Made by a program: the position numbers and the translations under genes. 64,000 nt of DNA from Alcanivorax borkumensis SK2 (GTDB lineage Bacteria; Pseudomonadota; Gammaproteobacteria; Pseudomonadales; Alcanivoracaceae), in NCBI RefSeq assembly GCF_000009365.1, contig NC_008260.1, forward strand, positions 965,501-1,029,500, read 5' to 3'. The notes below the pieces were generated by a model, which worked only from the letters and a program-made list of their open reading frames with translations, was not told the DNA's origin and made no database searches. This document shows positions 1,256 through 31,716 of this stretch, one piece after another (the stretch's first letter is position 1; each line of letters begins with the position of its first letter).

Positions 1256-1328
1256 CTTTTTCTCCCATGTTAAGGCTTACAGCCTAGATCGGCTTATTAG
1301 CGTCGAGCAAGCCCGTTTTGAACTGTCG

Positions 1329-1337
1329 TGCTATACT
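1329..1337 (+). promoter_or_regulatory. Extended -10 promoter for the ccm operon
   Basis: TGCTATACT is a good extended -10 box (TGn plus five of six bases of TATAAT) with no clear -35 at 17 nt. Transcription would begin near 1344, about 20 nt before the TTG at 1363. This would exclude the longer reading frame opening at 1318. Prediction only. Confidence 0.45.
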
Positions 1338-1362
1338 GCTGCGCTGTTTTAGGGAGCCCGAT

Positions 1363-2681: not shown

Positions 2682-2732
2682 GCGCGCCGCTATCCGACGG
2701 GAAAGCGGGCGGTATTGAAAGTAGGTGTCTGC

Positions 2733-3491
2733 ATGGTTTGGCAAACAATAAAACGCTGGTATCACATGCTCGGTTCGCCGCGCTATTTCTACAGGTTCAG
2801 TTCTGCGCTGCTGCCATGGCTCACGCCCATTGCGTTGCTGGTGTTTACTGTGGGCATTGTCTGGGGGTTAGCGTTTGCCCCCAGTGATTATCAGCAGGGC
2901 AACAGCTACCGAATTATTTTTATTCATGTGCCGGCTTCCAGTGGTGCTCTGATGGGGTATGTGGCCATGGGCGTTGCGGGGTTGGTTGCTGTGGTGTGGC
3001 GGATGAAAATGGCCGAAGTAATGATGAAAGCCATTGCCCCTTTCGGGGCTGTGTTGGCGGCAATCTCCTTGGCCACCGGTGCACTGTGGGGGAAGCCTAC
3101 CTGGGGCACCTACTGGCAGTGGGATGCTCGGATGACCTCCATGCTGATTTTACTGTTCATGTATGTGGGCGTGATTGCCCTGCAAAACGTGATCCGCGAT
3201 CCTCGCCAGGCAGCCCGCGCCGCTGGCTTACTGGCCATGGTGGGGGTGATCAATGTGGTGATCGTGAAATATTCGGTGGAATGGGTGCAGACCCTGCATC
3301 AGGGCTCGACCCTGAAGCTGTTAGGGGAATCCACGATTAACCCGGCCATGAAATATCCGCTGTTAATCAGCATGCTGGGAACTTGGCTGCTATATGCGGT
3401 CAATGTAATGGTGCGTGCGCGTACCGAAGTAGTATGGCGAGAGCGGCGCAGCAAGTGGGTGCGCAAGCTGATGAAGGATGGAGGGCAATAG
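2733..3491 (+). CDS. ccmC: Heme transport protein CcmC
   Basis: 252 residues from ATG 2733 (an in-frame TTG at 2715 is possible but has no ribosome site). Six membrane segments and the tryptophan-rich heme-handling motif WGTYWQWDARMTS identify CcmC, which presents heme in the periplasm and loads it covalently on CcmE. Conserved histidines flank the motif (IFIHVPASSG and the VQTLHQGS loop). The gene ends just before ccmD. Confidence 0.96.
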   Translation: MVWQTIKRWYHMLGSPRYFYRFSSALLPWLTPIALLVFTVGIVWGLAFAPSDYQQGNSYRIIFIHVPASSGALMGYVAMGVAGLVAVVWRMKMAEVMMKAIAPFGAVLAAISLATGALWGKPTWGTYWQWDARMTSMLILLFMYVGVIALQNVIRDPRQAARAAGLLAMVGVINVVIVKYSVEWVQTLHQGSTLKLLGESTINPAMKYPLLISMLGTWLLYAVNVMVRARTEVVWRERRSKWVRKLMKDGGQ

Positions 3492-16031: not shown

Positions 16032-17627
16032 TTACTGACCAAGAATGGCGTCAGCGGCTTTTTCGGCAATCATTACAGTGGGGGCATTGGTGTTGCCGCC
16101 AATCAGGGTCGGCATGATAGAGGCATCCACTACGCGCAAGCCTTCTAGGCCGTGGACACGCAGCTCGCTATCGACTACCGCCATTTCGTCGCTACCCATC
16201 TTGCAGGTACCCACCGGGTGGTAAATGTTGTCACACTTTTGGCGGAGGAAACCGCGAATTTCTTCATCGCTCTGTACCTCTTTGCCCGGGAAGATCTCTT
16301 CGCCGCGCCAGTCGGTGAGCGCCTGTTGTGCCATGATCTTGCGAATGGCCTTCACGCCGCGGACCATGCCTTCCATGTCGTCCGGATGCTCCAGAAAACG
16401 CGGGTCGATCAGGGCTGGGGAGCGGGGGTTGCCGTCACGCAGGGTGATGTTGCCGCGGCTTTTAGGTCGCAAAATGCAGACATGGCCGGAGTAGCCATAG
16501 CCCATGCTGAAGAGCATGTTGAGGCCGTGGTTATCCAGCTTGGCAGCAGTCAGGTGCAGCTGCAGGTCAGGAATGTTTTCTTCAGGACGCGATTTGATGA
16601 AGCCACCGGCTTCTGCCACGTTAGAGGTCAGCTGACCAGTGCGGCGATAAAAGAAATTGAAGATCCCTTTTAGCCCGGTGGTCATGAGTGCGCCGGGGGC
16701 TAGGCTCAGTGTGTCCTTACGCAGGCTTTTATGGACCACTAGCGCATCGGGGTGGTCCTGCAAGTTTTCGCCAACCCCAGGCAGATCATGAACCAGCGGA
16801 ATGTTGTGTTCGGCCAGTTCCGCCGCCGGGCCTACCCCGGATAGCTTTAGCACCTGTGGCGAGTTGATGGCGCCCCCGGAGAGAACCACTTCGTTGTCTG
16901 CTTTTAGGGTGCGGATCTGACCGTCGTGCTCCACTTCTACGCCGATGGCCCGTTTGCCGTCGAACAAGATGCGATTGACCAGTGCATTGGTCATGATGGT
17001 GAGGTTAGGACGATCCATTACCGGGTGCAGGTAGGCTTTGGCAACACCGCAGCGCTCGCCATCCTTCTGGTTCACCTTGTACATGCCCATGCCTTCTTGT
17101 ACTTCATTGTTGAAGTCGTCGGTGGCAGGGTGCCCGGCTTGCACGCCGGCTTTAACAAAGGCGCGGCTCACCGGGTGGGTGAATCGCAGGTCGGCAATGT
17201 TTAACTTGCCACCAGTGCCATGGTAGGTGCTTTCACCCGCTTCATAATGCTCAGAGCGTTTGAAAACAGGCAGGACATCATCGTATCCCCAGCCTTTATT
17301 GCCCAGTTCCGCCCAGTGGTCATAGTCCCACTTATGGCCACGGGTATAACACATGGCATTGACGGCGGAAGAGCCGCCCAAGGTTTTCCCTCGCGGAATA
17401 TAAATCTGGCGGTTATTCAAGGCTTTCTGGGGCACGGTGTAATAGCGCCAGTTCCGTGCGTTGGAGCGCATCATCATGATGATGCCCGCAGGAATCCGAA
17501 TAAATAGGCTGTTATCGGCGGGGCCGGCTTCAAGGAGGCACACGCGATTATTCGGGTTTTCGGAGAGGCGGTTGGCGAGTACGCAGCCGGCGGAACCGGC
17601 GCCAACAATGATGTAATCAAACTGCAT
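16032..17627 (-). CDS. GMC family alcohol dehydrogenase (AlkJ-like)
   Basis: 531 residues. The FAD-binding N-terminus is DYIIVGAGSAGCVLANRLSE; GMC signatures are PRGKTLGGSSAVNAM and VVLSGGAINSPQVLKLSGVG. Active-site region IYHPVGTCKMG and the closing VVDASIMPTLIGGNTNAP are conserved. The closest match in memory is AlkJ of the alkane pathway, a membrane-associated quinone-linked alcohol dehydrogenase; choline dehydrogenases (BetA) are also related. Context gives no alkane gene, so the substrate remains open. Alone on the minus strand. Confidence 0.9.
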   Translation of the reverse strand: MQFDYIIVGAGSAGCVLANRLSENPNNRVCLLEAGPADNSLFIRIPAGIIMMMRSNARNWRYYTVPQKALNNRQIYIPRGKTLGGSSAVNAMCYTRGHKWDYDHWAELGNKGWGYDDVLPVFKRSEHYEAGESTYHGTGGKLNIADLRFTHPVSRAFVKAGVQAGHPATDDFNNEVQEGMGMYKVNQKDGERCGVAKAYLHPVMDRPNLTIMTNALVNRILFDGKRAIGVEVEHDGQIRTLKADNEVVLSGGAINSPQVLKLSGVGPAAELAEHNIPLVHDLPGVGENLQDHPDALVVHKSLRKDTLSLAPGALMTTGLKGIFNFFYRRTGQLTSNVAEAGGFIKSRPEENIPDLQLHLTAAKLDNHGLNMLFSMGYGYSGHVCILRPKSRGNITLRDGNPRSPALIDPRFLEHPDDMEGMVRGVKAIRKIMAQQALTDWRGEEIFPGKEVQSDEEIRGFLRQKCDNIYHPVGTCKMGSDEMAVVDSELRVHGLEGLRVVDASIMPTLIGGNTNAPTVMIAEKAADAILGQ

Positions 17628-17682
17628 GGTATCTGCCTTGTGCTAGTGACACAGTAAACAGAGCATTCTAGGAATTCGGCGT

Positions 17683-18321
17683 ATGAAAACGAGGTTTGTT
17701 TGTGACCGGCGAGTCCAATGTATACCACGTTGGATGGCGCTGTTTTTGGCATTAATGCCTGCTTTGGCGGTTTCGGCAGCGCCTCCGGAGTGGCGAGAAG
17801 TGGTTTTTGCCGGGCATACGGCGTATCGACAAACCACTGAGTGCTGGCAGGCCCGTGCACAGGGAACGGCCTCAGGGCTGGTGCGGGAGAAAAGCGTCGA
17901 CCTTGAAAAAACGCCTTGGCTGGTCTGGCAATGGCGGGCTGAGGCTGTGGCCGCCTGGCCGGATACCAACGAGCAGCATAAAGCCGGTGATGATTTTCAG
18001 GCACGGGTGTATGTAGTGAAAAAGGGGTGGTTGCCCTGGCAAACCCGGGCGATCAATTATGTTTGGTCGCGGCAATCTGCGCCTGGCGCTCATTGGCCAA
18101 ACCCATTTGCGCACCAGGCAGAAATGGTGGTGGTGCAGGGGCCAGGCGGTGCCGGAGTGGCACATATGTTTTCACGTAATGTCCAAGCGGACTTCCAGCG
18201 TTTCCATGGAATGGCGGTGACATCGGTGGATGCAGTGGCGATCATGACCGATGGCGACAATACTGGGGCCACGGTGACCAGCTGTTACCAGTTGCCGTCC
18301 TTTCGCTCCGAGATGCCTTGA
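17683..18321 (+). CDS. DUF3047 domain protein, exported
   Basis: 212 residues with a signal peptide (about 18-33, WMALFLALMPALAVSAAPP). The rest matches DUF3047: WLVWQWRAEAVAAW, DDFQARVYVV, AINYVWS and a closing VDAVAIMTDGDNTGATV. The family has a beta-sandwich look and is probably periplasmic; function unknown. It is divergent from the GMC gene with 55 nt between starts. Confidence 0.85.
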   Translation: MKTRFVCDRRVQCIPRWMALFLALMPALAVSAAPPEWREVVFAGHTAYRQTTECWQARAQGTASGLVREKSVDLEKTPWLVWQWRAEAVAAWPDTNEQHKAGDDFQARVYVVKKGWLPWQTRAINYVWSRQSAPGAHWPNPFAHQAEMVVVQGPGGAGVAHMFSRNVQADFQRFHGMAVTSVDAVAIMTDGDNTGATVTSCYQLPSFRSEMP

Positions 18322-18668
18322 ATACAAATGCATTAAAGCGGAACGTCAGTTGATCATTGGCCAGGCTTGCGAACACAAACGCTAATCAGGAAACGCTCAA
18401 TGTGAAAAGAGAGTTGCGGCTAGCGCGCTGCCCTGTTTATTATTTGTTCAGCTGGTTGTCTGTGATTAGGGTGTTGAGGCAAATTAATCAGAGATAATAA
18501 AGTAAAGGCGCCGCCACCGTGCTGACATACCCACACCGGCAATGCACGACCTTCCACGGGGTTTCCCGCAATAGCGTTCCTATCTCTTTTGCCTTCTGTT
18601 GCAGAATCGTCATCACCTTACGTTTATATCTGATACAGCCACACTCAATTACATTGCTGAGGTTGCCC
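18322..18668 (+). other. Gene-free interval upstream of the HNH gene
   Basis: 347 nt between the DUF3047 stop and the HNH start. Several short frames cross it on both strands, but none has a ribosome site or family likeness. No strong hairpin or repeat was seen. It probably contains the promoter for the HNH gene and perhaps for the pel genes. Confidence 0.5.
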
Positions 18669-19229
18669 ATGACTGAACGTATTTTGCGCTTGGACAAGGC
18701 GGGGGCCCCGGTCGAATGGTTGGACTGGCAGGTCGCCGCCACCCTTTATGCTCGTGGTCTGGTCACTTGGACGCTGGGGGAAGAAATCTACCGGTTGCAT
18801 GGTGGGACCAGTCGCACTACCGGTGCTCGATCACTCTTATCCCTCCACTCGATTATCGCCTGCGATGGCATTACCCACAGTTATAAGCGCCCGCCTCCAC
18901 CGTTAACCAATCGGGCTCTTTTCCGTCGCGACAAGCATCTGTGCTTATATTGCGGTAAATCCTTTGCTGAAAATGCGCTTACCCGTGATCACATTGTGCC
19001 TACCTCACGTGGTGGTAAGGATCGCTGGTTGAATGTAGTGTCGGCTTGTCGGCGCTGTAATCAGCGTAAGGGTAGCCATCGACTGGACGAAATTGGCATG
19101 GAATTACTGGCCCTGCCTTATGTGCCGAATATGGCAGAGTATCTGGCGCTGATTAATAGCCACCGTATACGGGGGGACCAGATGGCCTTTCTACGTAGCC
19201 AGTTTGGTAAGGAAAGCCGGCTTTTGTAA
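18669..19229 (+). CDS. HNH endonuclease
   Basis: 186 residues from ATG 18669 with GAGG six bases upstream. The HNH/McrA-type core includes two zinc CxxC pairs (CLYCGKSF and ACRRCNQRKG) and the catalytic TRDHIVPTSRGGKDRWLN. The N-terminal about 90 residues lack a known domain. Stand-alone HNH proteins of this type are common in proteobacteria and their target is unknown. It ends 130 nt before pelA, so it may share regulation with pel, although no functional link is known. Confidence 0.9.
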   Translation: MTERILRLDKAGAPVEWLDWQVAATLYARGLVTWTLGEEIYRLHGGTSRTTGARSLLSLHSIIACDGITHSYKRPPPPLTNRALFRRDKHLCLYCGKSFAENALTRDHIVPTSRGGKDRWLNVVSACRRCNQRKGSHRLDEIGMELLALPYVPNMAEYLALINSHRIRGDQMAFLRSQFGKESRLL

Positions 19230-19233
19230 GAAA

Positions 19234-19296
19234 AATGTAAAAATAAAAAATGCTGATGGGTCCTTATTTACATTGGGGAGGCTCAATTACCATATT
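19234..19296 (+). promoter_or_regulatory. Candidate pel promoter and inverted repeat
   Basis: An AT-rich imperfect inverted repeat, AATGTAAAAATAA (19234-19246) and TTATTTACATT (19264-19274), overlaps a possible -35 TTTACA (19267-19272). It is followed after 18 nt by CATATT (19291-19296). Transcription would begin near 19303 and give a leader of about 57 nt to the GTG at 19360. The arrangement could be a repressor or activator site for pel. All of this is prediction. Confidence 0.35.
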
Positions 19297-19359
19297 TCAC
19301 TTCGTCTTGACGTGAATTCAGATAGACTAAAATTCTTTTTCAGATTTCTGGTCAGGGAC

Positions 19360-22143
19360 GTGCCCATTCGTTACGTCATTTTTTTCTTGTGTTGGTGTGT
19401 TGCGGCTACTGCCTCGGCAGTAGAGAGTAAGGCTGACGCCAAAACAGCGGCCTTTTATTATGGCCCCGATATTCCATGGGCTTCGCTGGCCGTGTTTGAT
19501 TTTCCCGTGGTGGAGCCAAATCAGGCTGACACTGTGCCCCAGGCCTACCAGGGTGAACATTTCTATGCCTATGTGAGCTTGGGTGAAGTGCTGGCCCAAC
19601 GTCATTATTTCTCTGGTTTGGACAAGGCCTGGTTGTTGGGGAAAAACCCGGACTGGGGGTCGTTTATTCTTGACCAGTCTTCCCCGGCGCTACGCAGCTA
19701 CTTTATTGATGCCGTGATTGAGCCTCTATGGCAAAAGGGCTATCGCGGTTTTTTCCTTGATACCCTGGATAGCTATCAACTGGTCGCGGAAGACGACGCC
19801 GCCCGTGAACGTCAACAAAAAGGGTTGGCCGCGCTGATAAACGCTATTGCCGAGCGCCATCCCGAAGCCGGGTTTATTTTCAATCGCGGTTTTGAGCTGA
19901 TGCCATTGATTGAGGCCCGCGTGGATGCGGTGGCGGCAGAGTCCCTCTACCAGCGTTGGTTGCCAAGCAAAGATCAATTTGCGGTGGTTCCGGAGTCGGA
20001 CCGGCAATGGCTGCTGGATCAGTTTGAGCAAGTCCGTGAGCGCTATGGTGTTAGCACTATTGCCATTGATTATGCCCCCCCCAGGGACCGTGACCAGGCA
20101 CGTAAAATCGCTAGCGACATTGCCCGCCATAATGTGATTCCTTGGGTGACTAACCCGGCGCTGGATATGTTGGGCGTGGGAGAGCTGGAGGTCATCCCTC
20201 GCCAGGTATTGATGGTCACCGGTGGTAGTAAAGAAAGCACTTGGGAATTATCCATGGCGGTGCTCTATGGGTTAATGCCACTACAGTTTCAAGGGCTGGT
20301 ACCCGATGTGCGGGTAATAGATACACCGATGCCCGCGGGAACGTTGGCGGGCCGTTATGCCGGTATTGTGGTTTGGCTAGAAGACCCGCAAGCCCGCAGC
20401 GATGAATTTGAAGACTGGTTGGCTCTACAGAAAGACAACGGCGTTCCCATTCTCATGTTGGGTTTCCCTGCAATTGACCCGAAAGGTTCCCATGCAGAGG
20501 ACTTTGGATTTATCTCACGGGGCACGCCGACCAGCCCGCCCAGTATTCACTATCAGCACCCGGACATGGGGTTCGAAATTCCGCTACCGGGATTACTGGA
20601 TGTATCTTCCCCGCTGGACAGTAAAGAGGCCAATCCTTGGCTTGAATTGCGTAGCGACAACCAGACACTGATTCCGGTGGCCACCACCCCGTGGGGCGGC
20701 TATGCCTTTCAGCCCTTCCCCATTCGCTCCATGATGCCCGGTATTAAAGAAGGCATGAACCGCTGGATGATCAACCCGCTCACCTTTACCCGTGAAGCGC
20801 TGAAGTTGCCGGCCATGCCGATTCCGGATGTAACAACAGAAAATGGACGTCGCTTACTATTTGCGCATATGGATGGCGATGGCTTCCCCAGCTTGGCGGA
20901 AGTGGAGGGCTATCGCAATGAAGCCGACGCCTTGGTTTTATTAGATGAGATTCTTAAGAAATTCGATATTCCAACCACCATTTCGGTGATTGAAGGGGAG
21001 GTGTCCAGCGAGGGCCTGTACCCGAAAATGGCGCCGGAATTGCAACGCATTGCCCGCGCCATGTTTGCGCTTCCCCATGTGGAAGCGGCAACCCATACCT
21101 ATTCACATCCCTTCTTCTGGTACGATGCTCAGGAAAATCCCGGTGAACTCTACGGGCCGGAAGGGCAGCTGAGATTGCCGATTCCTGATTACCGTATGGA
21201 CCCGGTGCGTGAGGTGGTAGGTTCGGCAAACTATATTGAGCGCGAGCTGTTACCTCCGGGTAAGAAAACACGCATGGTGTTGTGGAGCGGAGATACCATC
21301 CCCACTCCGGAAGCGCTAAAAGCGGCCCGTGAAGGTGGCTTGCTGAACATGAATGGCAGCAATACCACCATTACTGAAAGTGCACCGACCTGGACCCTAG
21401 TCAAAGGTATTGGTGTGCCCAAAGGCGATGAGTTTCAGGTGTATGCACCTAACCAGAATGAAAATATTTACACCAATGAATGGACCGGTCCTTTTTACGG
21501 GTTTGAAAGGGTCATCGAAACCTTCAAGCTGACCGAGACTCCGCATCGTTTTAAGCCGGTGGATATCTACTACCACACCTATATTGCTAGTAAGAATGCG
21601 TCGCTGGAATCATTGCGCCGGGTATATCAGTGGGCCAGTGAGCAACCGTATTTTCCGCTCTTTGCATCGCAATACGTGCGTAAAGTGCTCGATTTCAACG
21701 ATATGGTCATTGCCCGTCGTGGTGATGAATGGCTAATTCAGGGCAGCGGTGAGTTGCGTACTTTGCGCTTACCGGATGAGCTGAGCTTTCCGGCAATATC
21801 CGGGAGCGATGGGGTAGCTGGATTCCGGGAGGATAAACCGGGCCGTTATGTTCACCTCAGTGGTGGCCGCGCCCGTTGGCAGGGGCGGGTAGCATCGGAT
21901 GATGCCATGCCCTATCTACAGCAGGCGAACGGGCGGCTGACGGCGTTCTCTCGGAATGGGAAAAGACTGCAATTCTCCCTGAGCGCCATGGCTCCACTGG
22001 CGTTCACCTTGGCCAACGTCGAAGGCTGCACCCTGCGTCACCAAGGTAACATTATTAAACCGATTGGCCGTCACGGTCGATTTAATCGCTACAGGAGTGC
22101 GGCACGTGAGCTCAACGAGCTACGGTTACAATGTCCGCACTGA
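19360..22143 (+). CDS. pelA: PelA, Pel polysaccharide deacetylase/hydrolase
   Basis: 927 residues from GTG 19360, chosen because it gives a clean signal peptide (MPIRYVIFFLCWCVAATASA); the frame stays open upstream to 19204 and GTG 19312 is an alternative. The N-terminal glycoside hydrolase domain carries Glu194 in AVAAESLYQRW, which lines up with the catalytic Glu of Pseudomonas PelA. The deacetylase domain shows Asp505/Asp507 (HMDGDGF) and His579/His583 (THTYSHP). PelA partly deacetylates and trims the GalNAc-rich Pel polymer in the periplasm. Its end overlaps pelB by 38 nt. Confidence 0.94.
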   Translation: MPIRYVIFFLCWCVAATASAVESKADAKTAAFYYGPDIPWASLAVFDFPVVEPNQADTVPQAYQGEHFYAYVSLGEVLAQRHYFSGLDKAWLLGKNPDWGSFILDQSSPALRSYFIDAVIEPLWQKGYRGFFLDTLDSYQLVAEDDAARERQQKGLAALINAIAERHPEAGFIFNRGFELMPLIEARVDAVAAESLYQRWLPSKDQFAVVPESDRQWLLDQFEQVRERYGVSTIAIDYAPPRDRDQARKIASDIARHNVIPWVTNPALDMLGVGELEVIPRQVLMVTGGSKESTWELSMAVLYGLMPLQFQGLVPDVRVIDTPMPAGTLAGRYAGIVVWLEDPQARSDEFEDWLALQKDNGVPILMLGFPAIDPKGSHAEDFGFISRGTPTSPPSIHYQHPDMGFEIPLPGLLDVSSPLDSKEANPWLELRSDNQTLIPVATTPWGGYAFQPFPIRSMMPGIKEGMNRWMINPLTFTREALKLPAMPIPDVTTENGRRLLFAHMDGDGFPSLAEVEGYRNEADALVLLDEILKKFDIPTTISVIEGEVSSEGLYPKMAPELQRIARAMFALPHVEAATHTYSHPFFWYDAQENPGELYGPEGQLRLPIPDYRMDPVREVVGSANYIERELLPPGKKTRMVLWSGDTIPTPEALKAAREGGLLNMNGSNTTITESAPTWTLVKGIGVPKGDEFQVYAPNQNENIYTNEWTGPFYGFERVIETFKLTETPHRFKPVDIYYHTYIASKNASLESLRRVYQWASEQPYFPLFASQYVRKVLDFNDMVIARRGDEWLIQGSGELRTLRLPDELSFPAISGSDGVAGFREDKPGRYVHLSGGRARWQGRVASDDAMPYLQQANGRLTAFSRNGKRLQFSLSAMAPLAFTLANVEGCTLRHQGNIIKPIGRHGRFNRYRSAARELNELRLQCPH

Positions 22144-22984
22144 GCGGCTGCGGGTCGTTGGTTTACTCGAATTATTTGCCTTCCTGATTCTCATCGCGGT
22201 GGTGTGCTGGATGGTCTTCCCACGGGACCTATCCTCGTCGTTGCGCAGCGCTCGTCTGGATGCGGTTACGTTTAGTTATATGCAGGCATGGCTGAAGGCT
22301 AAACCCGACGACCACGAGTTACGGCTGCTGATGGCTCGCGAATTGATTCTGCAAGGCGATTTTGTGGAGGCAGATAATCAACTGAGCTATGTGGCACGTG
22401 TCAGCAATGGCCGTTATGACAGCCAGATCGCTTGGCTGGAATTACGTCGCGAATTTACCCGCCTGATGGCCATCACACCGGACAACCGTTTTGGAACCAT
22501 GTTGCAGCATGACACCCTAGCGCAGTTGCGCAGCATTGACTGGGGTGCGCTGAATAATGAAAAGCGCATGGCGTTTGCAGATATGGCCCTGGCCCTGGGG
22601 GACGTAGACCAGGCGGTACAGGCTTTCACTCGATTGGCTGACAATGCGGCTAACCCCAGCCGCTGGTATGTGAAATCAGCCAAAGTGCTGCTGGCCCATG
22701 GCCGTTACTCGGAATCGGCGGACGCCTATATTGCCGCTATGGATTCACGAGGCAATTATCAGGTGCGCAAGCGCTATTTTCTGGCTGCGCTGGATGCTTT
22801 GCAGGCAGGGAGCCTGCATCGCAAGGCCATGCGCTTGGCCGGCGCCCGTGAACGGTCGTTTTATAATGACAAAGACGTTTTGTACCGGTTAATGACCTTG
22901 GCTCAGGCTGGCGGCAATATGGCAGCGGCAGAACATTATGCGGTGTTGCTGTTAAGGCTGGCGGATATCGAGGAGCCCGGATGA
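22106..22984 (+). CDS. pelB: PelB N-terminal part: membrane-anchored TPR protein
   Basis: 292 residues from GTG 22106 with AGGAG eight bases upstream. One N-terminal membrane helix (LLELFAFLILIAVVCWMVF) is followed by periplasmic helical repeats of TPR type. This corresponds to the start of PelB, which in Pseudomonas is a single protein of nearly 1200 residues. Here the reading frame ends with EEPG and a stop whose bases overlap the ATG of the next gene (ATGA at 22981-22984). The protein likely spans from the inner membrane into the periplasm and scaffolds PelA. The split is genuine in the sequence given. Confidence 0.88.
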   Translation: MSSTSYGYNVRTERLRVVGLLELFAFLILIAVVCWMVFPRDLSSSLRSARLDAVTFSYMQAWLKAKPDDHELRLLMARELILQGDFVEADNQLSYVARVSNGRYDSQIAWLELRREFTRLMAITPDNRFGTMLQHDTLAQLRSIDWGALNNEKRMAFADMALALGDVDQAVQAFTRLADNAANPSRWYVKSAKVLLAHGRYSESADAYIAAMDSRGNYQVRKRYFLAALDALQAGSLHRKAMRLAGARERSFYNDKDVLYRLMTLAQAGGNMAAAEHYAVLLLRLADIEEPG

Positions 22985-25761
22985 AGTTCCGTCTGTTGCT
23001 TATGGTTGTTCTTGCTTCGGTATTGGCCGGCGCATGGACAGCCCATGCGGCGGATCCAGAACCCTATGTGGAACGCTATTACGATCGCAGCTATCGGGTG
23101 TTTATGGCGTCGGGAAATTTACCCCGTGCCCGGCAAGTGATTGAAAATGCGCTCTACTGGCGTTCCGACGATGAGCGCTGGTGGCGTCGTTTGGCTGAAG
23201 TATCCCGTTGGTTGGGCGACCCGGAAACCGCATTGAAGGCCTGGCGTCAGGTGGCGGAGTTGAGTAATGACCCGCAGGCGTGGAAGCACGTACTGGAGTT
23301 AGCGCCACTGACCTATAACAACCGCCTTGCCCTGCGGGCTCACAAGGCGCTATTGAGCGTGTCCCCTTACGATGCGGGCATCATTGCCACCATCGGTCGG
23401 CAATACGAGTTGTTGGGTCAGCCTGAGGCAGGGCTGCGCTTCTTCGAACAGTGGCGTCGTAGTTATCCCAGCAAAGCGGTGCTAAGAGAAATGCAACGCT
23501 TGGCTCTGAACCAGGGAGAAGATTTGCTGGCGGCAGGTTATTCCCGGGAATACATGGATCGTTTTGGTCCTGAGCCGTTGATGGCAGAACAGGCCGCAGA
23601 TCTGTACTGGCTAAATGGTCAACGCGAAAAAGCGCTGTTAGACCTAAATCGTGATGCTAACCAGTTGCCTTATATACCCGCATTGTCCCGTCGTATTGCG
23701 GTGATGGCCGGGGAGTTGGGGGAGTGGGATCTGGCACTGTCCCGTTACCAGGAGCTGGTGGACAATGAAGACGATCAGATAGACGACCTGTATAACTATA
23801 TAACGCTGTCCCGTTATTACCAGCCGGAGCGGCTAGCATTGCTGATGGGCCGGGCCTGGCGCAAGAACGGTGACCCGCAATTGGCACTTGGCGCATTGTA
23901 CCAGCTGCAGTCTCGCGGCGATGATGCCGCCATTGATGCCTTTCTTAAGGGGCTGAGCGCGGAACAACGACAACGGCTTGAACAAACCCCGGAATTTTTG
24001 CGCTTCTATGCCAACCTGCAATTGCATCGCGGGGATGCAGACGCGGCGCAGCGGTGGCTTAATAAAGCCTTGGTTTTAAATTCCGAGGACAGAGAAACCC
24101 GCATTAGCTGGATGTGGCTGCTCATCGCCACAGGCCAAGATACCGCGCTGCAACAGGCTCTGGTGAATTGGGAAGACTCGGCTCGCAGTGACCGCCGCTA
24201 TTGGAACGTGCTGGCAGCTTCACAAATGGCCTTGGGTAATGCGGAGCAGTCCCTGCGCTATGAAATTGAACTACTGAAAACTGCCCGCGATAACTGGGAG
24301 AGGCAGTGGTATTACTCCCAGGCGTTGATTGCTTCTGGGCGAAACGGGCAAGCTTGGCCGGTAATGCGTCGCCTAAAAGAGCAGCTTCCGTTTACGGTCG
24401 AACCGCAGCAACAGGCCACCTATAGGGACATGAAGTTGACCCTAAGCCTGTTATTTGATGATGGCGACACCACCCTCAAACTGGCCCAAGCGCAAATAGA
24501 CGGCATGGAAGACGTGCCCGCCGCTCATGCTGAATGGCTAGCGCAGTGGGCCATTGGTCAGTCGGAACCTGGCTTGGCTCAGAGCTGGTATTTACGTAAA
24601 AAAATAGCACAGCAGGGCCCGCTTAAGGCTGGATCAGCGCTGGCCTATGCCTTGGTGCAGGGTGATCTGGATTCGGTAGCCAGAACGCGTGAGCAGTACT
24701 TGGGCCAGCTTAGCCTGTCCGAACAGCTGGAAGCCCACGTGCGGTTGGATGAACCGCGCCAGGCCGCTAATACTTTCATGGCCATTCAGGCCGGAGCGCC
24801 AGAGTTGGCAGGCAGTAATAATCTGCAGGAAAGCCTGCTGTTGCCTACGGCGCTTTCCTCCCAGTTTCATCTTGAGCAGCGCCGTTTGGGTGCGCTGGAT
24901 ATTCAGGACCTGCAGTTTGTTCAGTACCACCCGATCAGTGACTTCACGCAGTTGTCGGTGGAGGCTCGTCAGCGCAATTTCAGTAGTAATGACGATGAAT
25001 TATTGCAGATCAGTGATGATGAGCAGCGCCTCTCGGTGGCGTTAGCCTACCAGCGCGAACGGTTCCGCAGTCGCCTGAAATTGGGCCAGCGCAATCTGTT
25101 GAACAATAGTGAAACCATGGCGGACTTGGAGCTGGGGGCGAACTGGACGCAGTATTGGTCCGGTAGCCTGAATTACCAATGGCGAACGCCGGCGGATGAA
25201 TCGTCCCTGTTGATTCTCGGTGCGTCACGCACGGGTAGCCAGTGGTTGTTGAATTGGAGGCCATCATCCACCTGGCAAAGCAGTGTGGATTGGGCCAACT
25301 ATGACTACCATGATCTCAATGAGAGCGATCTGGGCAGTGGCAGTATCATCAATGCTCAAAGCACCTGGCGCCCCTGGTTATCACGCTTTTCCCCCGGCGT
25401 ACGGGTGAGGCACACCCGTGCGGACTTCACCGCTGGCGGCGACAGCATGGCGCAAGTGCGTGCGCTGCTACCCCCGGGGGCCCAGACGTTGCCGCTACCG
25501 CAAGACTATCACGAGTCGGAAATAGTACTGTTGTTGGGCCAGCCTGATGTCCATATTCGTGCGCACCGATTACAGGGTTGGGGAGAAATTGGCTACAGCG
25601 AGAACAGTTTGTCTGGGGCGGGTTTTACCGGCCGCTTCGGGGTCGAAGGCCCTTTGATCGGGCGTGATGAATGGAAGATTTACGCGGAGCAACAGCTCAA
25701 TAGCGGTGGCAGTGATGAAGACAGCTACCGCTTTGGGCTGCAATATAGAATTTATTATTAG
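22981..25761 (+). CDS. pelB: PelB C-terminal part: exported TPR and beta-barrel porin
   Basis: 926 residues with its own signal peptide (MKFRLLLMVVLASVLAGAWTAHA, shown here as cleavage after AHA). About 600 residues of TPR-like helical repeats follow, rich in RxW and LG-E-ALxxW patterns. The last about 300 residues have alternating strands (SGSLNYQWRTP, WLLNWRPSSTWQSSVDW) and end in FGLQYRIYY with a terminal aromatic, as in outer-membrane barrels. It is the Pel export pore, working with PelC. Together with the preceding gene it equals one PelB. Coupled upstream by ATGA; pelC starts 12 nt after. Confidence 0.92.
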   Translation: MKFRLLLMVVLASVLAGAWTAHAADPEPYVERYYDRSYRVFMASGNLPRARQVIENALYWRSDDERWWRRLAEVSRWLGDPETALKAWRQVAELSNDPQAWKHVLELAPLTYNNRLALRAHKALLSVSPYDAGIIATIGRQYELLGQPEAGLRFFEQWRRSYPSKAVLREMQRLALNQGEDLLAAGYSREYMDRFGPEPLMAEQAADLYWLNGQREKALLDLNRDANQLPYIPALSRRIAVMAGELGEWDLALSRYQELVDNEDDQIDDLYNYITLSRYYQPERLALLMGRAWRKNGDPQLALGALYQLQSRGDDAAIDAFLKGLSAEQRQRLEQTPEFLRFYANLQLHRGDADAAQRWLNKALVLNSEDRETRISWMWLLIATGQDTALQQALVNWEDSARSDRRYWNVLAASQMALGNAEQSLRYEIELLKTARDNWERQWYYSQALIASGRNGQAWPVMRRLKEQLPFTVEPQQQATYRDMKLTLSLLFDDGDTTLKLAQAQIDGMEDVPAAHAEWLAQWAIGQSEPGLAQSWYLRKKIAQQGPLKAGSALAYALVQGDLDSVARTREQYLGQLSLSEQLEAHVRLDEPRQAANTFMAIQAGAPELAGSNNLQESLLLPTALSSQFHLEQRRLGALDIQDLQFVQYHPISDFTQLSVEARQRNFSSNDDELLQISDDEQRLSVALAYQRERFRSRLKLGQRNLLNNSETMADLELGANWTQYWSGSLNYQWRTPADESSLLILGASRTGSQWLLNWRPSSTWQSSVDWANYDYHDLNESDLGSGSIINAQSTWRPWLSRFSPGVRVRHTRADFTAGGDSMAQVRALLPPGAQTLPLPQDYHESEIVLLLGQPDVHIRAHRLQGWGEIGYSENSLSGAGFTGRFGVEGPLIGRDEWKIYAEQQLNSGGSDEDSYRFGLQYRIYY

Positions 25762-25772
25762 GAGTGAATCCA

Positions 25773-26297
25773 ATGAGAGTGAGCATTCCGCTACTGGGTA
25801 CCTTGCTGCTGGCTGTCGTGCTGGCCGGTTGTACTCATGTTCGCAGCAGTCAGAATGTGGAATTGTCTGGGGAGGGCACATGGCTGGTGTTGCCTTTGGT
25901 TAACCGTACCGCGACGCCCCAGGCCGGCTTGCGGGCGGCAGCGATCGTAGAATCGGTGCTGTTTCGCCATGGCGTTAACACGGTGACCCGCTACCCGCAA
26001 AGCGATAACCAAGGAGTGTTATTCGAAGGCACATCCGCCGCCAGCCGCAAGAAAATGGATAAGTGGATTCGCTCCCAATCGGCGGATTATGTGGTTAGTG
26101 GGGTTGTACACGAATGGCGTTATAAAACTGGTGTGGACGGTGAGCCGGCGGTAGGGGTGATGATTGAAATCCGAGAACTGCCTGAGGGGCGCATTGTTTA
26201 TAGCGGCACCGGCTCGCGCGCGGGCTGGGCCCGCCAGTCGCTCAGTGAAGTCGGCCAGAAAGTGATCGATAAACTGATCTCGCCGGTGGTGCAGTAA
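25773..26297 (+). CDS. pelC: PelC outer-membrane lipoprotein
   Basis: 174 residues from ATG 25773 (TAGGAG eight bases upstream). Lipoprotein signal MRVSIPLLGTLLLAVVLAGC with LAG-C lipobox and Thr at +2, fitting outer-membrane sorting. The mature domain is short (GTWLVLPLVNRTATPQAG; SADYVVSGVVHEWRYK). In Pseudomonas PelC forms a ring under the PelB barrel and funnels the cationic polymer to the pore. Stop and pelD start share one base. Confidence 0.92.
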   Translation: MRVSIPLLGTLLLAVVLAGCTHVRSSQNVELSGEGTWLVLPLVNRTATPQAGLRAAAIVESVLFRHGVNTVTRYPQSDNQGVLFEGTSAASRKKMDKWIRSQSADYVVSGVVHEWRYKTGVDGEPAVGVMIEIRELPEGRIVYSGTGSRAGWARQSLSEVGQKVIDKLISPVVQ

Positions 26298-27631
26298 TGT
26301 TGGAGCACCTCAGCAACGGTAGGCTGGCGGGGCTGTTTATGCCGCAGCCGAGAGTGCTCTGGTCGATGTGCGAAGCGATCATTCTGACCGCCCTGGCGGT
26401 TGGTTTGGGCCTCTGGTTACGTTATGACGATCCGTTGACGCTTATCGGAACTTTCCGTTGGGTGCTGCTAGTGCCTATCCTGTTGGCGCTTCGTTACGGC
26501 AGCCTGCTCGGTGTGTTTGGCATGCTGTGCTTGGTCAGTAGCTGGTTTATTCTCAGGTTTTTCGGCTTTTACCCCAGTTTGCCCTTTCCTGAATCCACCA
26601 TGCTCGGTGGCTTCGTTATTATTCTGATCTGCGGCGAGTTTGCCGATATGTGGCGGGTCAAACTGATGCGCGCCGACAGTGCTTCCAGTTATGCGTTGGA
26701 GCGCCTGCAGAATCTTACGCAGCGCTATGTGTTGTTGCGTTTGTCCCATGACCGCCTGGAAGAGAATCTACTCGTTAAACCCTACACCGTGCGCGATGCG
26801 CTGGCGCGGTTGCGCGAGCTGACCTTAGATGAAAGTGACAGCATTCGGCTGCCTGCAGCGGATGATCTGGTGCATCTTCTGGCAGAGTATTGCCAGCTAC
26901 AGCGTTGTGCCTTGTACCGCGTTGTTAATGGCCGGATTGATGACGAGCCGGCGGCCCTGTTGGGAGAAAATGGCCCCCTGGACCGAGATAACGAACTCCT
27001 TCAGCACGCGCTAGATCATCGGCTATTGGCCCACGTTCAGCAGCAAGGCCACGACAGCAATTACCATGGCCAATATTTGGTGGCTGCGCCTATCATCAAC
27101 AGCGGTGGAGACCTCATCGGGATGATGGTGATTGAGCGCCTGCCATTCCTCTCGATCAACTATGAAAATCTGCAGTTGCTGTCTGTGCTGCTGAACTTTT
27201 ATGCGGATATCGTGCACGCCGGCGATGAAGTGGATGAGATGTTGGATCGCTGGCCGACCATGCCCTTCCGTATTGCCAGCGAGCTGGCTGCCTTGGTGCG
27301 TTTGCGTGAAGGTGGCCGAGTAGATACTTCCCTGACCCTATTTGTGGCCGATGAAAGCGAGCAGGCCGGGCTAATTCTGGATGCTCTGGCGCGTGGCCTG
27401 CGTAGCCTCGACTTGGCATGGTGGATCAGCGATAGGGTACTGATGATCATGATGCCTATGACCGGGGAATCCAGTCTGGAGGGCTATGTTCTGCGTACGG
27501 AAAAATGGCTGCAAGAGGAGTACGTCTTCATGAGCCTACGCCAGGCGGGCATACAGTTCTTTTACCGGCACCTGGACCAGCGAGACCCCGAGGTGCAGAT
27601 CGCCAGGTTGCTGGAGGCAGCCGGTGTCTAG
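26297..27631 (+). CDS. pelD: PelD c-di-GMP receptor
   Basis: 444 residues: four N-terminal membrane helices (about 22-115), a coiled stretch, a GAF domain (about 180-305) and a C-terminal degenerate GGDEF domain. The GGDEF active site is lost, but an RxxD inhibitory-site motif (RSLD, residues 369-372) is kept. In Pseudomonas the same motif binds c-di-GMP and switches on Pel synthesis. So post-translational control of Pel by c-di-GMP is expected here. Overlaps pelE by eight bases. Confidence 0.94.
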   Translation: MLEHLSNGRLAGLFMPQPRVLWSMCEAIILTALAVGLGLWLRYDDPLTLIGTFRWVLLVPILLALRYGSLLGVFGMLCLVSSWFILRFFGFYPSLPFPESTMLGGFVIILICGEFADMWRVKLMRADSASSYALERLQNLTQRYVLLRLSHDRLEENLLVKPYTVRDALARLRELTLDESDSIRLPAADDLVHLLAEYCQLQRCALYRVVNGRIDDEPAALLGENGPLDRDNELLQHALDHRLLAHVQQQGHDSNYHGQYLVAAPIINSGGDLIGMMVIERLPFLSINYENLQLLSVLLNFYADIVHAGDEVDEMLDRWPTMPFRIASELAALVRLREGGRVDTSLTLFVADESEQAGLILDALARGLRSLDLAWWISDRVLMIMMPMTGESSLEGYVLRTEKWLQEEYVFMSLRQAGIQFFYRHLDQRDPEVQIARLLEAAGV

Positions 27632-28634
27632 CCTCAAGCTAATTATTTATGCCGTCGCTGCAGAAATCGCATCGCTAATGCTGTTGTTGAGCAAGCAGGC
27701 GGATTTATCGATTTTCTTGTTGTATCTGTTATCACACGGTTTGGCTTCAGCCTTGTTATCCGTGGTGGCCTGGAGTTTATTGCCTGAACGTTTCAGAACG
27801 CCAAAAATCCTTTCCTGGGTGCTGGTTTTTTCCTTTGCGTTCTTTATCCCCGCCATGGGGTTAGTGACGATTTTGGGTGGTGTTGCGCTGGGTATCTGGC
27901 TGCCGGCATTGTTTCGGGATCTACCGTTTGGGTTGGTGGATCAGCCGTACTTTACCCCGGTGCAAGTGAATAGCACCGCGGGTTTTCGACAGATCGATCT
28001 AAAAAATTTGCTGATCTCATCAAAGGCGCCAAATGCCTTACGCGTGCAAGGCATGTTGGTGCTTAAAGATATGCCTGCCAGGGTAACCGGTAATCTGTTA
28101 CGCCATTCCCTCGGCGACTCCTTTGAAGATCTGCGATTGTTGGCCTACGGGATTCTTGATCAAAAAGAAAAAGAAATTACCCGTGATATTGAGCGAGCCC
28201 TGCATTTACTGGAGCGCTCCAAAGAGTCCCGCCGTTACCGTTTGGCGCGTCGCCTGGCCGAGCTCTACTGGGAGCTCAATTATCAGAATTTGGTACGCGG
28301 TGATATTCGTACGTTAACGTTAGAGCGAGCCGGTTATTACGCGGATATGGGGCTGATGGAAAGCCCAGAAGATGCTGGGCTGTGGCTGTTACGCGGGCGT
28401 ATCCAGCTCAGCCAGGAACAGATAGGCGAAGCGCACCAGTCCATGACATTTGCCCGCCGACTTGGCCTTTCTGCGGCGAAAGTGAATCCCTGGCTTGCCG
28501 AAATTGCGTTGCAGCGCCGGCAAATGTCGCTGGTACGTATGTTGATGCTGGAAATCACCGATGACAGCCAGTTTACCCAGCTGAATAAATCCGTTGAATT
28601 CTGGAGGGCCTATGAGCCTGCCACGGGCGGATAG
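27624..28634 (+). CDS. pelE: PelE inner-membrane protein
   Basis: 336 residues from GTG 27624 with GGAGG six bases upstream. The N-terminus has two or three hydrophobic segments (LKLIIYAVAAEIASLMLLL; WVLVFSFAFFIPAMGLVTIL), followed by a cytoplasmic or periplasmic helical region with TPR-like repeats. PelE is part of the inner-membrane PelDEFG synthase complex, where it helps hold PelD and PelG together. It overlaps pelD at the start and pelF by 23 nt at the end. Confidence 0.9.
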   Translation: MSSLKLIIYAVAAEIASLMLLLSKQADLSIFLLYLLSHGLASALLSVVAWSLLPERFRTPKILSWVLVFSFAFFIPAMGLVTILGGVALGIWLPALFRDLPFGLVDQPYFTPVQVNSTAGFRQIDLKNLLISSKAPNALRVQGMLVLKDMPARVTGNLLRHSLGDSFEDLRLLAYGILDQKEKEITRDIERALHLLERSKESRRYRLARRLAELYWELNYQNLVRGDIRTLTLERAGYYADMGLMESPEDAGLWLLRGRIQLSQEQIGEAHQSMTFARRLGLSAAKVNPWLAEIALQRRQMSLVRMLMLEITDDSQFTQLNKSVEFWRAYEPATGG

Positions 28635-30168
28635 CGCCGATATTTGTCTATTACTGGAAGGCACCTTCCCCTACGTGAGTGGTGGTGTGTCCAGCTGGGT
28701 AAACCAGATTATTCGTGGTTTTCCCGAGTACACCTTTGCCTGTTGTTTTGTAGGCAGCCGCCCGGAAGACTACGGCGAGATGAAATACGAACTGCCCGAC
28801 AACGTGGTGCACCTTGAAGTGCACTACCTGCACAATTTTCAGCGGGGGGCGCAAAAACGCTCCCTCAAGGGTAATCGCAAAGCTTATGCCGATTTGCGGC
28901 GTTTTCACGACATGGTGAAAGAGGGCGTCCAGACCCGCGAACGCAGCCAATTGTTCAGCCGCATTGTGACTCATCTGGGCGAAGGCGAGGATTATTCCGA
29001 AGAGTCGTTCCTGCACAGCCGGGCCAGCTGGGATTATATCGCCGAAGCGTACCGGAACTTTAGCCGTGACCCGTCATTTGTGGATTACTTCTGGACCATC
29101 CGTATTATGCACTCGCCCATCTGGGTGCTGAACGACATTGCCGATAATTTAATTCCGGCGAAAATGTACCACACCATTTCGACCGGTTATGCCGGCTTTC
29201 TAGGGGCCATGCTAAAGCGCCGCACCAACAAGCCTTTATTGTTGTCCGAGCACGGTATTTACACCAAAGAGCGCAAAATCGATCTATTCCAGAGTGAATG
29301 GATCAGCGATAACCGTGGCTTGGTGGAAAAGAATAACTCGGAGATGGCCTATTTTCGGGAGAAATGGGTGAATTTCTTCACCGAGTTAGGGCGTGAGTGT
29401 TATCAGGCATCAGACCGGATCGTGGCTCTTTATGAACGAAACCGGGAACGGCAGATGGAAGATGGCGCCCCCCCGGACCGCACACTGAATATCCCTAATG
29501 GCATCGACTTGCCACGTATGCAGAAAGTGCGCGCCGCCCGTGGTGAAGCCATTCCCCCGGTGGCTTGCCTGATTGGCCGTGTGGTTCCCATTAAAGATGT
29601 GAAAACCTTCCTGCGCGCCATGCGCACCTTGGTCAATGTGATTCCCGAAGCGGAAGGCTGGATTGCCGGGCCGGAAGATGAAGATAAAGATTACGCCAAG
29701 GAATGCCGTGGCTTGGTGGCCAGCCTGGGGCTGGAAAAAAATGTGAAGTTTTTGGGCTTTCAGAAAATTGATGAATTGCTCCCTAAGGTGGGGGTGATCG
29801 TGCTCAGTTCCATCAGTGAGGCATTACCTTTGGTGCTGCTGGAAGGGTTTGCTGCCGGCGTGCCGGCGGTATCCACGGATGTGGGGTCTTGCCGCCAGTT
29901 GATCGAAGGCCTTGATGAAGATGATCGTGCCTACGGTAAAGCTGGCGAGGTGGTGGGCATTGCCGACCCAGAAGCGCTGGGTAACGCCGTGGCTCAGTTA
30001 TTGAAAGACAAAGACGCGTGGTTTCAAGCACAGCAGGCGGGTATTCGTCGGGTTGAAAACCTGTATACCCAGGAAATGATGTTTGGCGCTTATCGGGATT
30101 TATACCGTTCTTTGCTTGATGATTCAGGCATTGCGGCCTCGGCCAGTAATAAGGAGGGCCGCCACTAA
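28612..30168 (+). CDS. pelF: PelF glycosyltransferase
   Basis: 518 residues from ATG 28612 (GGAGGG three bases before). GT-B fold, family 4: N-terminal DICLLLEGTFPYVSGGVSSW, donor-binding NIPNGIDL and CLIGRVVPIKDVKTFLRAM, and the E-x7-E element SEALPLVLLEGFAAGVP. It polymerises the Pel chain in the cytosol from UDP-GalNAc or related sugars, feeding PelG. The stop shares one base with the pelG start. Confidence 0.95.
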   Translation: MSLPRADSADICLLLEGTFPYVSGGVSSWVNQIIRGFPEYTFACCFVGSRPEDYGEMKYELPDNVVHLEVHYLHNFQRGAQKRSLKGNRKAYADLRRFHDMVKEGVQTRERSQLFSRIVTHLGEGEDYSEESFLHSRASWDYIAEAYRNFSRDPSFVDYFWTIRIMHSPIWVLNDIADNLIPAKMYHTISTGYAGFLGAMLKRRTNKPLLLSEHGIYTKERKIDLFQSEWISDNRGLVEKNNSEMAYFREKWVNFFTELGRECYQASDRIVALYERNRERQMEDGAPPDRTLNIPNGIDLPRMQKVRAARGEAIPPVACLIGRVVPIKDVKTFLRAMRTLVNVIPEAEGWIAGPEDEDKDYAKECRGLVASLGLEKNVKFLGFQKIDELLPKVGVIVLSSISEALPLVLLEGFAAGVPAVSTDVGSCRQLIEGLDEDDRAYGKAGEVVGIADPEALGNAVAQLLKDKDAWFQAQQAGIRRVENLYTQEMMFGAYRDLYRSLLDDSGIAASASNKEGRH

Positions 30169-31538
30169 TGGCAGGCATCGGTTTTGAGCTGCGCCGTCTG
30201 TTGCGTAAGGACACCTTGCTCGGGCTCATTCGTGCCTACGCCTATGCCGGAGTGATCAGCTCAGGTCCCTGGGTGTTATCGATCATCGGTATCCTGATTA
30301 TCGGTATTTTCAGCCTGGGGATCGTGATACCCAATGCGGCGGTGACGCAATTTCAGGTCACGGTCACCTATTTGATTGCGGTCAGTTTGACCCTCACCGG
30401 TATTGTCCAGCTGGCGTTTACTCGTTTCTGTGCCGACCGCTCGTTTGAAAAGCGCGAAGACCTGATTCTGCCTAATTTTGGCGGCGTTACCTTGCTGGTC
30501 ACGATCTTTGCTGGGCTACTGTCGTTACCGGTGGCCATGTTCCTGTTTCCGGAGCAAAGCATTCTTTTCCGAGTGTTGTTGATCGCCTGTTTTGTAGTGT
30601 TGTGCAATATCTGGATCGCCACGGTATTCCTGTCTGGCATGAAGCAGTACAAGGCTATTCTTCTGCTGTACGCACTCGGGTACGGGATTACGGTTGTAGC
30701 GGCGCTATTGCTGCTGTTTCTGGGGCTGGAAGGGTTGTTGTTGGGCTTTCTGCTTGGGCAAGTCACCTTATTGGCAGGCATGCTGGTGCTGATCGTGCGG
30801 GGCTACCCTGCCGAGAGCGTGGTGTCGTTCGCCATGTTCAGTAAAAAATACCTGTACCCCTCCTTGATGCTGGTCGGCTTTTTCTACAACGCCGGTGTGT
30901 GGGCCGACAAGGCCATGTTCTGGTTCTACGATGGCACCGGAAGCGATGTGATCGGGCCGCTTCGGGCTTCGTTAATCTACGATATCCCGGTATTCCTGTC
31001 GTATCTGTCGCTTATTCCTGGCATGGCAGTGTTTCTGGTGCGCATGGAAACGGACTTTGTGGAGTATTACTCCAACTTCTACGATGCAGTTCGTGAAGGC
31101 GGCTCGCTGTCTTATATTGAAGATATGCGCAATCGAATGGTCTTTGTGATTCGCCAGGGGATCTTCCAGATTCTCAAGATTCAGGCTATCTCGGCGCTGG
31201 TAATTATGGTTGCCGGTGCGCAGATCTTTCATGCGCTGGGCATTTCGGAATTGTACCTACCGTTGCTCAAAGTGCAGTTGATTGCTACCGCACTACAGGT
31301 GGTATTCCTCGCCATCATCAACGTGTTCTGCTACCTGGATCAGCGCCGCATGCTGGTGCTGCTGACCGGGTTGTTCTTCGTGCTTAATGTGATTTTTACT
31401 GGAATTAGCCTGTACCTAGGCCCTCAGTTTTTCGGTTTTGGTTTCTTGCTGGCCTTGGCTGTCTGTGTGTTGCTTGGCTTGTGGTTGGTCAGCCGCAAAA
31501 TGGCAGAGCTGGAATATTCCACCTTCATGCTTAATTGA
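30168..31538 (+). CDS. pelG: PelG polysaccharide transporter
   Basis: 456-residue integral membrane protein with about 12 helices, starting MAGIGFELRRLLRKDTLLGL as PelG proteins do. It belongs to the MOP flippase superfamily and moves the polymer through the inner membrane during synthesis with PelD, PelE and PelF. It ends the pel operon. No clear intrinsic terminator is seen in the 178 nt before the next gene. Confidence 0.94.
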   Translation: MAGIGFELRRLLRKDTLLGLIRAYAYAGVISSGPWVLSIIGILIIGIFSLGIVIPNAAVTQFQVTVTYLIAVSLTLTGIVQLAFTRFCADRSFEKREDLILPNFGGVTLLVTIFAGLLSLPVAMFLFPEQSILFRVLLIACFVVLCNIWIATVFLSGMKQYKAILLLYALGYGITVVAALLLLFLGLEGLLLGFLLGQVTLLAGMLVLIVRGYPAESVVSFAMFSKKYLYPSLMLVGFFYNAGVWADKAMFWFYDGTGSDVIGPLRASLIYDIPVFLSYLSLIPGMAVFLVRMETDFVEYYSNFYDAVREGGSLSYIEDMRNRMVFVIRQGIFQILKIQAISALVIMVAGAQIFHALGISELYLPLLKVQLIATALQVVFLAIINVFCYLDQRRMLVLLTGLFFVLNVIFTGISLYLGPQFFGFGFLLALAVCVLLGLWLVSRKMAELEYSTFMLN

Positions 31539-31716
31539 CAGGTGGTGTGTCGGATTGCCTCTTCTCTCACGGAGAAAGAACACACTGCCTTTCAGGCTTA
31601 ACGTGGTTGTTGCCGTCGGCAAGGCCGGGAAGTCGCCGTTACGAGAGTGACCCAACGAATGGTCCATGTCTGTGGTATCTTTTCCACGTTAATCATGTTG
31701 CTAGGGGAAGGGGCTC

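Follow-up and report, generated by a model that had tools for sequence, protein, structure and literature searches.

In Alcanivorax borkumensis SK2, the Pel exporter PelB is encoded as two proteins: the first has an anchor of the inner-membrane type, the second a cleavable-type signal and a barrel. This agrees with an earlier reading of the letters (hereafter the sequence-only reading). The pelB region of the window (the whole stretch of 64,000 nucleotides analyzed) reads as two overlapping frames of 292 and 926 amino acids. The split proposed by the sequence-only reading is real in this organism but is not peculiar to it: the same split recurs in other orders and probably in other phyla. In our reading, PelB is a modular relay: at its hinges the chain is covalent in some lineages and divided between genes in others. 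Module 1 would be an inner-membrane-anchored TPR module, module 2 a TPR module docking PelA, and module 3 a PelC-associated portal with the outer-membrane barrel. We put the probability at roughly 0.8 that modules 1 and 2+3 are separately exported proteins, with Pel relayed across the envelope.

The pelB pair and its operon

The pel operon of the window lies on the + strand in the order pelA-pelB1-pelB2-pelC-pelD-pelE-pelF-pelG, with the pelB pair between pelA and pelC. pelA (19204..22143) was assigned by a GH114-type hydrolase domain (PF03537, Pfam) and, for the remainder, by homology. It overlaps pelB1 by 38 nt, and its true start is probably downstream of the TTG at 19204. pelC (25764..26297, from GTG 25764 or ATG 25773) is lipoprotein-like by eye and gave no Pfam match. 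Both pelC and pelE (27624..28634) were assigned by position and homology among loci. pelD (26297..27631), pelF (28594..30168) and pelG (30168..31538) matched PF16963, NF038011 (831 bits) and PF16933, respectively. Rfam gave no family at gathering score in window 17500-32000, and promoter-like and terminator-like sites in window 18900-31900 did not exceed the shuffle level.

Several neighbors of the operon were noted. An HNH-nuclease-like frame (by eye) lies directly 5′ of pelA at 18519-19229, and another genus of the family has such a frame in the same position (L121 1-410). Directly 3′ of pelG, at 31717-37299, is a bacterial alpha-2-macroglobulin-like gene of 1860 amino acids. A MASE2-domain adenylate/guanylate cyclase is encoded upstream of the pel region at 14419-15963.

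pelB1 (22106..22984, + strand) starts with GTG, preceded by AGGAG at 22093-22097, and ends in TGA after 292 residues. The ATG of pelB2 (22981..25761, + strand) overlaps this stop in the ATGA at 22981..22984, exactly as the sequence-only reading had described. GAGGAG, a ribosome-binding-site-like sequence for pelB2, was read directly at 22970..22975 within pelB1. The PelB match of this pair is the only one in the genome, which is one contig of 3,120,143 bases.

PelB1 begins with a hydrophobic membrane helix and continues with TPRs. The helix, residues 20-37 (22163..22216), was placed by an AlphaFold2 model and by hydrophobicity. It has no evident cleavage site and no signal-peptidase site by our own rule, so that the anchor is predicted to stay uncleaved. 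Only 3 of 31 PelB1 N-termini passed the signal rule, and that of the window is not among these. The model was built with 49 sequences and has a mean pLDDT of 86.8 and a pTM of 0.74, with residues 1-15 and 43-50 below 50. It has the helix at 20-37 and then a row of helices up to residue 288, four residues before the stop.

PelB2 carries a Sec-type signal peptide by eye and by our own rule at residues 1-23 (22981..23049), ending in an AHA site. Its N-terminus reads MKFRLLLMVVLASVLAGAWTAHA before the predicted cleavage point and ADPEPY after it. The signal meets the Sec pattern of the rule, with a basic n-region, a hydrophobic h-region and small residues at -3/-1. Pfam placed the PelB C-terminal beta-barrel domain PF24604 at residues 624-925 (24850..25755) with 189.7 bits versus a cut-off of 31 (E 1.2e-55). 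TPRs ahead of the barrel matched PF13429 (110.5 bits, E 1.3e-31). The signal peptide, TPRs and terminal barrel that had been claimed for the second frame were therefore all recovered. NCBIfam gave only TPR-type matches on both frames, all below cut-off. Residues 37-596 of PelB2 (P0002) aligned with residues 293-848 of P. aeruginosa PelB (E 6.9e-8), and the PelA-docking and PelC-ring region has its counterpart in PelB2 by alignment only.

Conservation of the split and of the export signal

PelB2 was found in 17 of 17 genomes of the genus, and all are split. The barrel is present in 23 of the 46 family genomes searched, and every one of the 23 is split. These genomes have 24 complete split loci, each with a PelB1 frame upstream, and the two frames overlap by 4 or 1 nt (20 and 4 loci with favored starts; 22 and 2 with the start nearest the stop). 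The counts leave out L109, a second copy without pelA and pelB1. Its genome (G003) has two pel copies, L102 and L109, and the pelB2 frame of L109 starts in a remnant resembling the downstream alpha-2-macroglobulin gene. The sequence-only reading had named continuous frames lacking a junction signal in close relatives as the outcome that would speak against it, and no barrel-bearing genome of the family has one. Alignment with Pseudomonas PelB and with relatives, which it had suggested, placed the same junction in 23/23 family genomes and beyond.

Since all 23 barrel-bearing family genomes are split, as are all 17 in the genus, the split is no error. The chance that one pelB gene was divided by a sequencing or assembly artifact, or is decaying into a pseudogene, is negligible. 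Nothing at this locus favors it, and frame breaks inside pelB do exist elsewhere, in L201 (G1129), L124 (G279) and L261 (Pseudomonas oryzihabitans KNF2016), the last at the second hinge described below (profile 743/753). Against it, both products are conserved, and N-termini are signal-like by the rule in 23 of 24 family loci. Compared with the window, the PelB2 signals have a median identity of 0.35 and the following 100 residues one of 0.61.

A protein search with PelB1 (8000 candidates scored) returned at least 51 stand-alone homologues, all of 188-304 amino acids; its length limits bar full-length PelB from the results. Seven homologues are named: four from Alcanivorax and three from metagenome-assembled genomes (MAGs) labeled only Pseudomonadales, Pseudomonadota or Gammaproteobacteria. 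Among the matches listed by a profile-based search, also with 8000 candidates scored, most were unnamed; there were a few more Acidithiobacillus and none named Geobacter or Rhodoferax.

Signals at second-piece starts exceed chance. With the start nearest the preceding stop, 57 of 60 split loci passed our own signal-peptide rule, although these loci are related and so are not independent trials. In controls around random places inside PelB2 genes, the nearest start passed in 68 of 2733 cases and the most hydrophobic start in 100 of 2733. With hydrophobic starts preferred, the counts were 58/61 versus 32/1596 in controls.

It is very improbable that programmed frameshifting or read-through still makes some fused PelB. 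Frame 2 is open for 37 codons upstream of its own ATG, and 59 of 60 junctions share one frame relation, with an overlap of 4 or 1 nt, which is compatible with slippage. This sameness is also expected because ATGA-type coupling gives such overlaps. None of the 24 family loci has a canonical slippery heptamer where slippage could join the frames (a stretch of only 4-7 nt in L101, L114, L115 and L118). A fused chain would bury the signal peptide inside the TPR array. From these features, a frameshifted PelB1-PelB2 fusion appears unlikely.

Distribution, hinges and history

The split state of a locus was set by where the PelB profile or the PelB1/PelB2 matches fall. Open-frame length is misleading as a test, because L136 is split despite an open frame of 1339 codons. 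The class sample had 17 of 369 genomes above the barrel cut-off: 8 split (our own included), 7 with one chain and 2 cut by contig ends. One of the split genomes, G279, has an extra frame break in PelB2. In the order sample, 23 of 390 genomes were above the cut-off; 9 are split, all of the window's family, 13 are single, and the remaining one is a weak match that was left unscored. The phylum sample gave 16 of 398, with only our own genome split, 12 single, one reduced cluster (G1100), one cut (G955) and one unscored (G1120). Outside the family, therefore, neither the order sample nor the phylum sample has a split as scored; in the class sample it accounts for about half. The barrel is present in 3/5 genomes in the order of G374 and in 2/10 in that of G247; all are split, two with frame breaks in PelB2. 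Most other loci covered here, Pseudomonas included, carry single-chain PelB.

We also scanned named PelG loci, taking the best 80 of 572 relatives. These were ranked by likeness to the split-type locus, so the proportions are biased: 14 split at the same place, 53 single, 10 with no PelB on the contig, 2 partial and 1 broken elsewhere. The 14 split loci are Agitococcus, two other Moraxellaceae, three Rhodoferax, one uncultured beta, one Geobacter, two Geobacteraceae, and one each named ‘Deltaproteobacteria’, Campylobacteraceae, Gammaproteobacteria and Proteobacteria. Their second frames passed the signal rule in 13 of 14 cases. All 14 are MAGs, in which names and the assignment of contigs can be in error, and the phylum-level spread of the split rests on them. 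In L222, PelB1 is cut by the contig end and its anchor would lie outside the contig.

Two further loci differ in content. L139 (G1100) has a reduced pel cluster with only the hydrolase part of PelA and a PelB of about 600 amino acids with a signal-like start; neither a PelB1 nor a PelC match was found there. In L125 (oriented 980-3050), the PelA frame has only 689 amino acids versus about 920-950.

Three-piece PelB occurs in Acidithiobacillus. In the order of G296 (Acidithiobacillus, from a middle piece 99% identical), 19 of 31 genomes have the barrel, and each of the 19 loci was read within the limits of its contig. All three pieces are present in 13 of 19: a PelB1 of about 280 amino acids with a membrane helix, a signal-bearing TPR protein of 540-555 and a barrel protein of about 470-560. 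The pieces overlap by 4-8 nt. In G1131 the last two pieces are joined. G1152, G1156, G1144, G1140 and G1142 each miss one or two pieces, either undetected or beyond the contig end. Third-piece starts passed the signal rule in 12 of 15 cases. G134, of another order than G296 but beside it in trees, also has two pieces. The three-piece loci are L126, L183-L198 and L202, and each piece has a membrane sequence or a signal-like one. Extra residues stand between the signal and the first conserved TPR of the middle protein, about 75 by eye in P0054. The second cut falls at profile 743/801, which corresponds to about residues 731-775 of P. aeruginosa PelB. In that protein TPR19 ends at 726 and an alpha-rich region follows, according to the available text of PMC12022489.

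A search with the middle piece (8000 candidates scored) listed 32 matches: 30 of 540-555 amino acids, A. thiooxidans and A. marinus included, one of 329 and one spurious. A. thiooxidans has a stand-alone middle piece (P0062). Its pelD mutant has altered biofilm and Pel is part of the biofilm, as given in the accessible parts of PMC5852609 and PMC7825692. Together these suggest that split PelB is functional; the match is at species level, and the mutant is in pelD, not pelB.

The junction was mapped on a profile of 26 single-chain PelBs with 1221 positions. In the first 31 split loci, PelB1 ends at profile 285-294 and PelB2 starts at 266-299, mostly 280-295; in later split loci, PelB1 ends at 281-300. 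Over all of these loci, most PelB2 starts fall at 280-299. No TPR segment is missing across the split junctions. Acidithiobacillus and the metagenome genomes named Moraxellaceae, Rhodoferax and Geobacter share this junction to within about ten residues. It corresponds to about residue 283 of P. aeruginosa PelB. The available text of PMC12022489 reports that TPRs 9-14 of P. aeruginosa PelB bind PelA. The junction precedes these TPRs, so the PelA-binding TPRs lie within PelB2. The same text reports an AlphaFold3 kink after TPR 8, which by our reckoning is near the junction, not at it.

Among 79 single-chain PelBs, the first junction is the strongest insertion hotspot. Inserts there are of at least 10 residues in 46 chains, of 5 in one, and of 0 or 1 in 32; they reach 143 residues and have more Ala and Pro than the rest of the chain. 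The next hotspots, positions 751 (22/79) and 788 (12/79), lie at the second cut. Position 527 (10/79) is a further hotspot, and no cut is known there. Except for L137 and L231, the seamless single chains form one clade of 14 rows, Pseudomonas included, on a 71-row tree. In Pseudomonas-type single chains the TPR array passes the junction without a gap, and therefore a continuous scaffold is kept in this clade.

PelF+PelG trees with midpoint rooting have split lineages at their deep branches (Acidithiobacillus, L125, L127 and L129; also Geobacter and Rhodoferax), and on these trees the split may be older than the single chain. The window's family stands among single-chain lineages (99/97). In the 71-row tree, a chosen subset of loci, it adjoins split Moraxellaceae and the single-chain row L137 (92, not starred). 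On that tree four changes suffice if the window's family re-split, versus about eight, counted by eye, with fusion only. A secondary split of the window's family would thus be more parsimonious. A tree with all single chains on one side was rejected (p-AU 0.0045) on 48 of the 67 rows; this test omitted L109, L139, L147, L150, L187 and L190 as well as 13 rows of the window's family.

These trees do not firmly separate fission from fusion. With a root among the deep split lineages, the split would be ancestral and textbook PelB a derived form; the window's family would then have divided its PelB a second time or retained the original arrangement. The version in which the single chains of Pseudomonas and Burkholderiales are fusions and the window's family kept the old state falls somewhat short of even odds. 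The deep split lineages favor it, as does the variable linker that many single chains carry at the exact boundary; the placement of the family among single chains, the p-AU rejection and the doubled count of changes oppose it. More tentative still is the fuller picture of a three-module, two-hinge relay, in which the split is old and widespread, the Pseudomonas chain a later fusion, and the first hinge the peptidoglycan crossing where Pel is handed between TPRs.

A proposed relay across the envelope and known systems

In the relay that we favor, PelB1 and PelB2 would be translationally coupled in the window's family. The uncleaved helix of PelB1 would keep it at the inner membrane, beside PelDEFG. 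PelB2 would be exported by its own signal and released, and its barrel inserted in the outer membrane within the PelC ring. Pel would pass from the PelDEFG synthase to PelB1 and then to PelB2, be deacetylated by PelA on PelB2 and leave through the barrel. The contact between PelB1 and PelB2 would be non-covalent, by end-to-end TPR stacking. The PelB1 model as read ends on the second helix of a TPR with no extra capping helix, so the first TPR of PelB2 may stack on it. From this model, the last TPR of PelB1 likely stacks on the first TPR of PelB2. As the split falls at the same hinge in distant bacteria, a single covalent chain across both membranes is apparently not required.

Some observations weigh against the relay with separate proteins. 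Localization, contact and Pel production in Alcanivorax rest on inference from sequence, 32 of 79 single chains have 0-1 inserted residues at the junction, the phylum sample has the split only in our own genome among 16 above the cut-off, and a PDB sequence search with PelB1 gave no PelB match. The main rival to stacking is that PelB1 and PelB2 do not touch and that PelA or the polymer bridges the gap, with no continuous periplasmic scaffold. Judging by the long linkers that 46 of the 79 single chains carry, tight stacking is apparently not necessary in every case, and PelA docks on the part corresponding to PelB2 (PMC12022489, available text). PelB2 of one Rhodoferax MAG (L265) has a SPOR domain directly after the signal (residues 29-87, 25.9 bits, cut-off 21), which would place the free end at peptidoglycan; L221 and L233 gave no SPOR match, though they resemble L265 at the same place. 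We consider bridging rather unlikely: each cut lies between TPRs and removes no TPR segment, and the uncapped end of PelB1 in the model as read is what stacking predicts.

A divided pelB has been noted before. The legend of Fig. 5 iii in PMC7112194 mentions ‘pelB fission’ in aquatic thermophilic species, and the Alcanivorax split is a wider form of it, as far as the available part of that source goes. Those thermophiles are like A. borkumensis in having pelB in two genes, by description only; that part gives neither the junction nor the export signals or a mechanism. Titles and abstract openings of the literature searched held no description of split PelB in Alcanivorax. Nor did that literature, with supplements and subscription journals outside it, describe PelB2-type signals, a shared junction, a three-piece form or hinge hotspots.

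The conserved two- and three-piece forms with separate export signals mean that covalent continuity is probably dispensable. The split marks module ends and offers separable, taggable parts for testing trans-envelope hand-over of Pel in a marine bacterium that is not known as a pathogen.

In the alginate system, the TPR protein AlgK and the outer-membrane barrel AlgE are separately encoded, like the products of the second Acidithiobacillus cut; alginate is another polysaccharide than Pel, and AlgK is a lipoprotein. PgaA (PNAG) and BcsC (cellulose) have TPRs and a 16-strand barrel in one chain, like PelB2, and we know of no inner-membrane-anchored partner TPR protein for either. In the accessible text of the respective papers, AlgK/AlgE is named beside PelB (PMC12022489) and PgaA and BcsC are compared with PelB (PMC12141448). 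The latter also gives Tyr-1103 as a conserved exit-pore residue of P. aeruginosa PelB and proposes that this protein ‘may physically bridge two membranes’.

P. aeruginosa PelB (PDB 9h80, 5wft) has the same parts in the same order as the pair described here: an uncleaved N-terminal helix, TPRs, PelA-docking TPRs, a PelC-side region and a barrel, encoded at the same place in the pel operon. It is one chain of 1193 residues, in keeping with the single protein of nearly 1200 residues given in the sequence-only reading, and has no signal or break near residue 283, whereas A. borkumensis has two proteins with separate export signals. No single polypeptide links anchor and barrel here, and we take this linkage to be a Pseudomonas-type trait, not a family trait.
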